Below, in pieces: positions 18,568-25,066 of a DNA stretch of 64,000 bases (position 1 is its first letter; each line of letters opens with the position of its first letter). The stretch is from NCBI GenBank assembly GCA_013336525.1, contig JAAXTM010000010.1, positions 1-64,000 on the forward strand. Reading direction: 5' to 3'. The translations under genes were made by a program, and so were the position numbers. The notes under the pieces are model-generated. The model was given only the letters and a program-made list of their open reading frames with translations, was not told the origin of the DNA and did not search any database. The stretch is from Geobacteraceae bacterium (GTDB lineage Bacteria; Desulfobacterota; Desulfuromonadia; Geobacterales; Pseudopelobacteraceae).

Positions 18568-20193
18568 CTACTTCTTCACTTCATCCTTTTTAACTATCGC
18601 CATGGCATCATTCAGGATCTTGACACCCGCCTTGGAGGCGGCGATCGAACCGGTGAGGCTTTCGCGTGCCATTGACGGATTATGGAAACCGTCAGAGTTC
18701 TCGGCGGTCCAGTATTCCCAGAGGACATGAGCTTCCTCATGCTTTTCACGTGCCTGAAGCAAAACGCTCTCGACCACGCCGGCGCGCTGTGCGACGGCAT
18801 AGGTGTCTATCAGCTGGCCGAGCCAGTATTCCGATTTGCGCATTTTGCCTTTGGTGTAGTTTATGATTGATTCTATTTCATAGAGTTTCTTCTCGGCGGT
18901 GCTGTCAGGATGGCAGCCGAGGCAGGAAGCCTTGACGTTATGCTTCGGCTTGACTACGCCGTGGGTCGAGAACATCTTGCCGTCTTTCCCCTTTATTTTG
19001 GGCATGTGGCACTGGTGACACTGTACTCCGGCCTTGTCGTGTACGCTGCCGGCATAGGTTTCGGCTTCGGGGTGCTGGAACTTGATCAGACGGGCGCCGG
19101 TGACGGCATGTTTGAAGTCGAAGAAGTCCAGCGTCTTGTAATGATTCAGTAACTGCAGGGCGTTTTTGAGCGGGAAGTGGTTGGTGCGCAGGTCGTCAAA
19201 CTTGACAGGCTTGCCGTCACTCGGCTGTGTGCCGGGGTTGCAGTTGTATTCAACATGGCACTGGGCGCACATCATGCGTGAATCGGTCTTCTCCATCACG
19301 CCGATTTTGCGGAAACCGTCACGGAAGGAGACGACTTTCAGGTCTGTTTTGCCCCCTTTGGCAAATATGTTGCCGCCACGATCCTTCTCGATAGCCTGGA
19401 TCAGAGCGTCACGGACAACACGCGGCTGGGTGCCGTGCGGATCGTGGCAGTGGATGCAGCCCATCGGGTTATTGGTGTCTTTGGCCACGTCATTGGCGTT
19501 TGAAGTGCGGTCCCACTTGGCCTTGGGATCCTTGTCCCCCATGTACTTCCAATTAAGGACATGGTCGGACGTTTTACACTGGATGCAGGTCGGGTTGGCG
19601 GCCATGGCGGTCTCTTTCAGCTTGAAATCTTTGCCTTTATCTTCAAGGACATCCCAGGTCTTGCCCATTTTGCCGATGTTTTTCCAGCCCCCCTTGATCT
19701 GATAACGGCCACCCTGATAGCGATCCGAGGTGAATTGGTCGGTCACCATAAAGGCGTGTCCACGTGGTTCGTCATGCTCGAAGGTAAATCCGTGTGGAGC
19801 CAGGAGTTTGTCCTGCATTGGAGAACGGCCGCTCGGGATGCCTTTTTCTTTACGGGCGCCTCCTTCACGGTCGAAGGTGTAGAAACTTTCCATCTGGTTC
19901 TTGTGGCATTTACCACAGAGCGCCTGATCAATAATTGTGACCGGCTTGTTCTTCTCCGGATCATTCATATGGGCATCCAGTTTGTCATGGCAGGTTTTAC
20001 AGGAAAGTTTGGCGTGCTTGGATCCTTCTTTGAGAGCCTTGACCTCGTCGTGACACTCGTAACATTTTGCACGACCGTCATTGGCTACTTTTGCAGCAGG
20101 TTTTGCCTTGGCAGCGGTCGTCATGGCGGGGATTGATAATACAGCTACTGCCCCGATGACGGCCGCAGCAAGGACCAGGTTCTTCTTCAGCAT
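18568..20193 (-). CDS. Octahaem c-type nitrite reductase (ONR/TvNiR type, NrfA-related)
   Basis: Reduces nitrite to ammonium with six electrons in the periplasm. The protein has 541 residues with a signal peptide (about 1-28). Eight haem motifs are visible: CxxCH at 44, 65, 93, 246, 309, 392 and 424 and CIQCK at 203-207, whose Lys ligates the catalytic haem. Catalytic-region blocks are [10 protein letters not shown] (309-318) and FQHPEAETY (373-381). Tyr316-x-Cys318 matches the spacing of the cross-linked Tyr-Cys pair of TvNiR, which NrfA lacks. Three extra haems precede the NrfA-like core. The ATG overlaps the previous gene by seven bases and has AAGGAGAA upstream. No NrfH partner is present. 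Confidence 0.92.
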
Positions 20194-20609
20194 GTTGATT
20201 CTCCTTTCTGTGCGGGTAGTTCTGCTTTATCGGCAGATGGTGTTTGTGTTGTGGTGCGAGCCTGCATCCTGACCGCTTTTGGGGTCACCGGACAGACGTA
20301 TTGGCAGGTGCCGCAACCGGTACAAAGATCTTCAATAATCCTGATTCCTTCGCCCATTACCACAAGAATGGCCTGGGCTTCACAACGTTCCGAGCAGGAA
20401 AAACAGCCGCAGTTTTTAGCAAGGCAGTACTGATTGTCGGCCTTCGCCACCAAATTTATGTCAGGGACCGGCTCTTTTTCCGGCTCGACATCTACTGATG
20501 CTGAACTGAGAGAATCCTGCGCCTCCTGAACGGTGCCGCCAACTTTCAACAAAGTTTCTCCCAGTGAAAAAAAACTCTGCCTGAAAAAATCCTTGCGGGA
20601 CAGCGTCAC
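20187..20609 (-). CDS. NapF-like 4Fe-4S ferredoxin-type protein
   Basis: A 140-residue iron-sulphur protein. Start chosen: the GTG at 20609, which overlaps the stop of the upstream cytochrome as GTGA. A longer ATG frame would run far into that gene. The N-terminus reads SRKDFFRQSFFSLG, reminiscent of NapF. One normal 4Fe-4S set is CTGCGTCQYVCP. The other is altered: CLAKNCGCFSCSERC. NapF proteins are cytoplasmic and help maturation of NapA. The last seven bases overlap the nitrite reductase start, so translation is coupled. Confidence 0.8.
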   Translation of the reverse strand: MTLSRKDFFRQSFFSLGETLLKVGGTVQEAQDSLSSASVDVEPEKEPVPDINLVAKADNQYCLAKNCGCFSCSERCEAQAILVVMGEGIRIIEDLCTGCGTCQYVCPVTPKAVRMQARTTTQTPSADKAELPAQKGESTC

Positions 20610-20920
20610 TTCTTTTTGCCTTTTGGTGCAGTTTTCTTCTCTTTCTTTACCTCTCCCTGTACATGGCACGAAGTGCAGTTCAGCCGTTCAGGATGGCTGG
20701 TGGGGGGGGCATTTTTCAGGCCGGTACGGTGGCAGGTATTGCATGCTTCACCATCTTGATCCGGTTTGACAGCATGCGGAATCGTCGGAGGATTGCCCGG
20801 TGACTTCATCGCGTCAGCCGCAAAATCCGGTTCCGGCTGCTCATCGGCAAATGCTGAGGTCATAAATGCCAGAGAAAAAAAGACAGTCATTAGCAACATG
20901 GGGCGCACAATCAGTTTCAT
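20606..20920 (-). CDS. Diheme c-type cytochrome, NapB-like
   Basis: A 104-residue exported cytochrome with a signal peptide (MKLIVRPMLLMTVFFSLAFM). Two CxxCH motifs are present: CNTCH and CTSCH. The blocks NPPTIPHAV and APPTSHPERLNC match the NapB pattern in which the two conserved His residues ligate the haems. NapB passes electrons to NapA. This one is short and ends in a Lys-rich tail (KKEKKTAPKGKKK). The start at 20920 has GGAGG nine bases upstream. Family membership is likely but divergent. Confidence 0.8.
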   Translation of the reverse strand: MKLIVRPMLLMTVFFSLAFMTSAFADEQPEPDFAADAMKSPGNPPTIPHAVKPDQDGEACNTCHRTGLKNAPPTSHPERLNCTSCHVQGEVKKEKKTAPKGKKK

Positions 20921-24776: not shown

Positions 24777-24817
24777 CGCTTCCTCCTTGCTTGATTGACG
24801 TAACAAAAAAAAGCAGC

Positions 24818-25066
24818 TTATGGCCGCTCCGCTTCAAAATCCTCAAAATTGTGATAGGCCAACTGTACGGAGATGACGTCCTCAATACTCTGAAGTTCAG
24901 TTACCAACGTGACCTCGCCATCAACTGTATCAGCTTCAACAACGGCAATTATCTGTCCATCCGGCAGCACACCGTGTACTTCAACGCCTTCAAACGCAGC
25001 CATTTGATTCGCTACTGAATCGGCACAGCTGCCAAGGCAGCGGACAACAATTCCTGAAATCGGCAT
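24818..25066 (-). CDS. napD: NapA maturation chaperone NapD
   Basis: An 82-residue cytoplasmic chaperone that binds the Tat signal of NapA and holds it until cofactor insertion. The ferredoxin-like fold pattern is visible: ISGIVVRCLGS, VEVHGVLPDGQIIAVVE and ISVQLAYHNFED. GGGAGAA precedes the ATG. It is the first gene of the operon. Confidence 0.92.
   Translation of the reverse strand: MPISGIVVRCLGSCADSVANQMAAFEGVEVHGVLPDGQIIAVVEADTVDGEVTLVTELQSIEDVISVQLAYHNFEDFEAERP

Follow-up and report, generated by a model that had tools for sequence, protein, structure and literature searches.

Does a run of nap genes that ends in a gene for an octahaem nitrite reductase (ONR) encode one route from nitrate to ammonium, and is such an arrangement new? 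The question is raised by a locus in a Geobacteraceae bacterium (assembly GCA_013336525.1, contig JAAXTM010000010.1), for which we analysed a stretch of 64 000 nucleotides, referred to here as the window. Seven genes lie there on the minus strand, from position 25066 to 18568, in the order napD-napA-napG-napH-dihaem cytochrome-ferredoxin-ONR. A first-pass annotation of the DNA had proposed this order, and all seven genes were located where it had placed them. The features are listed below, with start codons that are our choice inside the listed reading frames.

24818–25066, minus strand: napD, NapA maturation chaperone (PF03927, 75.5 bits, cut-off 28)
22458–24776, minus strand: napA, periplasmic nitrate reductase with Tat signal (NF010055, 1055.4 bits, cut-off 904)
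21727–22389, minus strand: napG, Tat-exported ferredoxin-type protein (NF007012, 272.1 bits, cut-off 269)
20961–21737, minus strand: napH, membrane iron-sulphur protein, quinol dehydrogenase subunit (NF007013, 234.4 bits, cut-off 234)
20606–20920, minus strand: small dihaem cytochrome c of 104 residues, NapB-like in place and histidines (motifs CNTCH and CTSCH)
20187–20609, minus strand: ferredoxin with two cysteine quartets and a GTG start (PF00037, 26.4 bits, cut-off 21.1)
18568–20193, minus strand: onr, octahaem ammonia-forming nitrite reductase of 541 residues (haem motifs; 863.9 bits to PDB 8rv0)
18508–18547, minus strand: hairpin 3' of onr with an 18-pair stem, probable transcript end
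25205–25218, no strand assigned: dyad TTGACTTGGGTCAA, candidate HcpR-type operator, 152 bases before napD

NapA, which also matches TIGR01706 (1009.5 bits, cut-off 930.55), is the single NapA over cut-off in the genome, and Tat signals were detected in both NapA (25.6 bits) and NapG (23.6 bits). The coordinates reproduce the overlaps reported at first pass, of 11 bases for napG/napH, 4 for cytochrome/ferredoxin and 7 for ferredoxin/onr; at the other three junctions the genes stand 41, 68 and 40 bases apart. A chance arrangement can be ruled out because the identical gene order recurs in other genomes.

The ONR matches PF02335 (195.1 bits, cut-off 24.1) and aligns with solved octahaem nitrite reductases across nearly its full length. 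Its best match is PDB 8rv0, presumably TaNiR. The eight-heme nitrite reductase of PDB 2ot4 and 2zo5, which we take to be the Thioalkalivibrio enzyme TvNiR, is homologous to residues 42–531 but scores much lower (528.8 bits for 2zo5); the CXXCK site and the EPR(G/S) and QHPEAET active-site stretches of the 2zo5 chain are all kept. Eight haem motifs are present, starting at residues 44, 65, 93, 203 (CIQCK), 246, 309, 392 and 424, and their order (three CXXCH, one CXXCK, four CXXCH) is the one by which ONRs are recognized in PMC10716430. The same source also expects a histidine in the segment from the sixth to the seventh haem site, where the window protein has five, including H374 in the QHPEAET stretch, and describes a calcium site near the active site. 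ONRs carry an active-site tyrosine bonded to a cysteine (PMC12285233); the YNC stretch is conserved in our alignment, while the bond itself is invisible in sequence. We set aside an identity as octahaem tetrathionate reductase or hydroxylamine oxidoreductase, since CXXCK occupies the fourth site and the solved proteins that match best are octahaem nitrite reductases. The protein fits an enzyme that would form ammonium from nitrite, and the first-pass proposal of an ammonium-forming ONR in the compartment of NapA is consistent with both sequence and literature.

It is very likely that the seven-gene run serves to convert nitrate, via nitrite, to ammonium outside the cell membrane. Electrons taken by NapGH from menaquinol would reach NapA and ONR by way of the dihaem cytochrome and possibly also the ferredoxin. 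In the periplasm, NapA would reduce nitrate to nitrite and ONR would reduce this nitrite to ammonium, and nitrite would be consumed at its site of production. The operon would end at the hairpin behind onr, and an HcpR-like regulator of the CRP/FNR type, bound at 25205–25218, would probably control it. We hold this explanation as a whole, that of a NapGH-fed operon for Nap and ONR with a hairpin end and HcpR-type control, with high confidence.

Co-transcription of the seven genes as a single transcript is likely from their layout. Ferredoxin and onr leave no space for an intergenic promoter or terminator because they overlap, and a separate promoter and terminator at this junction is what the first-pass annotation had said would refute its proposed operon. 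A scan of the minus strand yielded no terminator-like site there and no site in support of a free-standing ONR promoter, in a setting where counts are near shuffle level (promoter-like 5 versus 5.7, terminator-like 12 versus 9.2). Beyond the ONR stop, a 76-base stretch forms the strong 18-pair stem (−37.4 kcal/mol, z −6.91), which none of 200 shuffles equalled in stability. A weak minus-strand hairpin at the napD end (24830–24810) could be a partial attenuator.

The two small redox proteins were labelled NapB-like and NapF-like at first pass. The first label holds for place and histidines and fails on score (PF03892, 17.1 bits, cut-off 25.1); the second holds as far as a ferredoxin is concerned and fails for NapF itself (TIGR00402, 21.7 bits, far under the cut-off of 102.2). 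Because both miss the NapB and NapF cut-offs, their roles are deduced from position and residues. Among aligned rows picked by likeness to the window's proteins, some of them duplicates and the window included, both CXXCH motifs and two further histidines of the dihaem protein are invariant (25 of 25), as are the eight cysteines and the first-quartet spacing of the ferredoxin (39 of 39). The further histidines are putative haem ligands. The ferredoxin quartets read C-x6-C-x2-C-x3-C and C-x2-C-x2-C-x3-C.

The search for a quinol oxidant covered the NapC/NrfH family (PF03264), which has no match in the draft genome (99.96% complete, 28 contigs); nor was there a match there to NapB (PF03892), and an E. 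coli control was positive for both families. Since the operon has napG and napH and the draft genome has no NapC/NrfH or NapB family match, NapGH is likely to be the quinol oxidant here. This does not extend to every Nap–ONR operon. In the set formed by the best 80 of 158 named loci, 15 are nap-linked, and 4 of these (L058, L069, L072 and L086) have neither napG nor napH between napA and the dihaem gene; L141 and L142 gave no NapG or NapH match. NapGH in the operon is therefore not a general need of the Nap–ONR pair, and as a fixed part of every such operon it was not borne out. In the four nap-linked loci, either napGH is located elsewhere or another quinol oxidant must serve.

The ferredoxin allows a second reading, in which it is not a NapF but serves nitrite reductases specifically, as their electron donor or assembly factor. 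Of 54 copies (E ≤ 1e-12), 38 lie within 700 bases upstream of an ONR gene, 17 of these having no NapA within 6 kb; this, the invariant first quartet and the score far under the NapF cut-off all point that way. Against it, nine copies lie within 6 kb of NapA with no adjoining ONR and seven are by neither, 44 of the 82 ONR matches among those listed have no such ferredoxin within 700 bases, and the second ONR of the same genome (below) has none either. The copies near NapA without ONR also weaken the case for a ferredoxin exclusive to ONR. A role dedicated to nitrite reductases is thus a serious possibility that falls a little short of an even chance.

The proposed operon for Nap and ONR is a further example of a published nitrogen-cycle module, because its gene order is known from cultured relatives. 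Sorokin et al. in 2023 reportedly described a nap locus followed immediately by an octahaem cytochrome as conserved in many Geobacteraceae, and are said to have proposed that NapGH feeds both enzymes. The same seven genes stand in the same order in L133 (genome G039) and L134 (G058). The ONR of L133 equals PDB 8rv0 over 495 residues, and we take this genome to be that of Trichlorobacter ammonificans, with the Nap-TaNiR module; L134 is probably the nap-nrfA-3 (ONR) cluster of T. lovleyi SZ. Identity to the window is 71% for ONR and 84% for NapA in L133, and 74% and 86% in L134. In L133, ferredoxin and onr are separated by a gap instead of overlapping as in the window, and the L133 stretch analysed, like that of L134, contains no TTGACN4GTCAA dyad, whereas the window does.

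That known nap operons lack such a nitrite reductase, as the first-pass annotation had stated, is contradicted by these precedents. In PMC11972089, ONR lies immediately downstream of nap in T. lovleyi and is upregulated in nitrate-ammonifying (DNRA) cultures, and a Nap–ONR partnership is described in T. ammonificans; the arrangement described there, nap genes immediately followed by ONR, is that of the window operon. PMC13390470 names a Nap-TaNiR complex. PMC11972089 also reports T. ammonificans to be without a pentahaem NrfA, whereas the window genome encodes a pentahaem NrfA-like protein as well as a second ONR. Of the two pentahaem NrfA proteins in T. lovleyi, one is behind nar-1, the position in which the window genome has its second ONR. 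Caldithrix abyssi likewise has an octahaem enzyme, eHao, beside nap and proposed to reduce nitrite, again counter to that first-pass claim; in PMC5317091, however, eHao is likened to hydroxylamine oxidoreductases and its cluster uses NapM, whereas the window gene belongs to the NrfA/ONR family with CXXCK.

How often ONR directly follows nap was surveyed, as the first-pass annotation had suggested, by searching 98 genomes, the window's own included, with ONR and NapA and comparing positions (NapA threshold E ≤ 1e-200, with a maximum of 10 candidates scored in each genome). Of the 98, 33 yielded a NapA, and in 21 of these 33 an ONR gene follows on the same strand within 6 kb. By this test the other 12 have no ONR behind nap; they include a divergent NapA/ONR pair about 6 kb apart (G047) and a genome with NapA and ONR on different contigs, the ONR 74 bases from a contig start (G037). 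The ONR set comprised 82 strong matches in 77 genomes among the matches listed, with weak NrfA-like matches dropped, partial matches included and one gene in two pieces counted twice; 61 of the 82 have no NapA upstream by the same test. With 12 of 33 NapA genomes and 61 of 82 ONR matches unpaired, the Nap–ONR pair is therefore not obligate. Weak NrfA-like matches situated no more than about 2.1 kb from NapA occur in four genomes (G043, G050, G054 and G060).

A second count used the best 80 of 158 named loci, a set that overlaps the 98 genomes, so that the two counts are not independent. NapA lies upstream on the same strand in 15 of these loci, and in a further three, where the contig is cut, the dihaem and ferredoxin genes precede ONR. 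Four loci have nar genes on the upstream side of ONR, and in four distant ones NapA is located downstream of it; contig ends may conceal nap in some loci. The four distant ONRs (L114, L115, L117 and L119; 48–50% identical) come from MAGs labelled Deltaproteobacteria and Nitrospirae. Identity to the window can be discordant between the two enzymes: G008 has NapA at 94% and ONR at 80%, G022 NapA at 73% and ONR at 88%. A single lineage of nap-linked ONRs was not supported, as the nap label, carried by 19 rows, needs 15 changes on an 81-row tree. Shuffled labels averaged 17.2 changes, 40 of 500 shuffles were as low, and strongly supported branches force at least 8; the tree was built quickly under LG+G4, L093 and L107 sit on long branches, and L077 was dropped by the length filter. 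The two ONR copies of the window genome fall in one well-supported five-row group in which nap- and nar-linked members are mixed.

The dyad at −152 of napD, TTGACTTGGGTCAA, matches the core of the HcpR motif, wyTTGACnnnnGTCAArw (core TTGACnnnnGTCAA), and its flanks, AA before and TT after, agree with the motif at two of four positions. PMC1274295 describes the motif for both Geobacter and Desulfuromonas; the regulon there includes nrfHA and nar, and hcp and frdX are the main targets. Two CRP-type helix-turn-helix genes score over cut-off in the window genome, and we regard the dyad as a candidate HcpR-type operator. The pattern TTGACNNNNGTCAA occurs at seven places in this genome; its count alone means little because a backward-read control pattern occurs at six. 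Five of the seven stand in front of nitrogen-oxide units: the window operon, a cytochrome-nar-onr2 unit, a PAS-RIC pair, and two hcp genes, one of which is upstream of nrfA. The remaining two fall within coding frames, one for a 7TM-HD protein and one for a CheA-like protein. Among the best 80 of 158 named loci, four were too short to score. The remaining 76 were scored for a dyad in the 350 bases that precede the first gene of the ONR unit, with nar genes not taken as unit starts; 31 have one there and 45 do not. The 31 are inflated by close relatives. Dyad density in these loci predicts 0.9, and none of ten other dyads was found before ONR units.

The second ONR (L121:7404-9020, C11:167403-169019) is 87.8% identical to the window's in protein and 81.7% in DNA. 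It follows narG, narH, narI and two narK-type genes, one of them under cut-off, and is itself followed by hcp; narJ was named by position only. No ferredoxin gene was found before it in L121. Between the last narK-type gene and this ONR, at about 9080–9430 of L121, a PAS-type frame that appears by eye to be interrupted by stops is a probable pseudogene. Elsewhere in the genome, L122:7086-8537 (C15) encodes an NrfA-like pentahaem protein that contains CXXCK and, at 201 bits, stays below the NCBIfam cut-off of 595; its gene neighbours hcp and RIC-like genes, and an NrfH family match is absent genome-wide. A separate HAO-like cytochrome is encoded at L123:9776-11029 (C11), with eight CXXCH motifs by eye, a PF13447 match and a partial hydrazine dehydrogenase match, and is preceded at 8575–9588 by what looks by eye like a membrane ferredoxin (no Pfam match at 1e-8). 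There are three hcp-like genes (L121:5680-7281, L122:3572-5173 and L137:950-2551), two of which have a TTGACN4GTCAA dyad about 100 bases before them. A Tll0287-like domain (PF11845) with CXXCH occurs in three proteins, two histidine kinases flanking the operon region (window 12427–14922 and 27092–29152) and a GGDEF protein near the second ONR (L121:2013-3332); these are possible haem-based sensors.

These surroundings bear on whether the octahaem enzyme might mainly detoxify nitrite, NO or hydroxylamine, its place behind nap reflecting shared control and not a respiratory pathway. The HcpR core in the dyad, given that hcp and frdX are the main HcpR targets, would suit such a role, as would the position of the second ONR between a narK-type gene and hcp and the presence of two ONR copies alongside a pentahaem NrfA-like protein. 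The overlap of ferredoxin and onr and the tie of ONR to NapA in 21 of 33 NapA genomes nevertheless favour the nitrate pathway, and T. ammonificans is reported in PMC11972089 to rely solely on ONR for DNRA. We consider detoxification as the main role improbable and retain the periplasmic route from nitrate to ammonium.

More tentatively, and with the balance slightly against it, ONR may be a terminal module with a history of repeated attachment to nap, nar or hcp units, in many cases together with its ferredoxin and under one HcpR-type operator. In the window genome each nitrite route would then have its own ONR, a Nap copy and a Nar copy, within one nitrogen-oxide regulon.

Nitrate reduction to ammonium retains nitrogen in soils and sediments, and the window operon adds one genome to this known pathway. 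What it adds to the published module is detail on regulation, on a second ONR and on module swapping. The second ONR behind nar and the common operator lead to testable ideas, in which nitrite removal may be split between periplasmic and cytoplasmic nitrate reduction.
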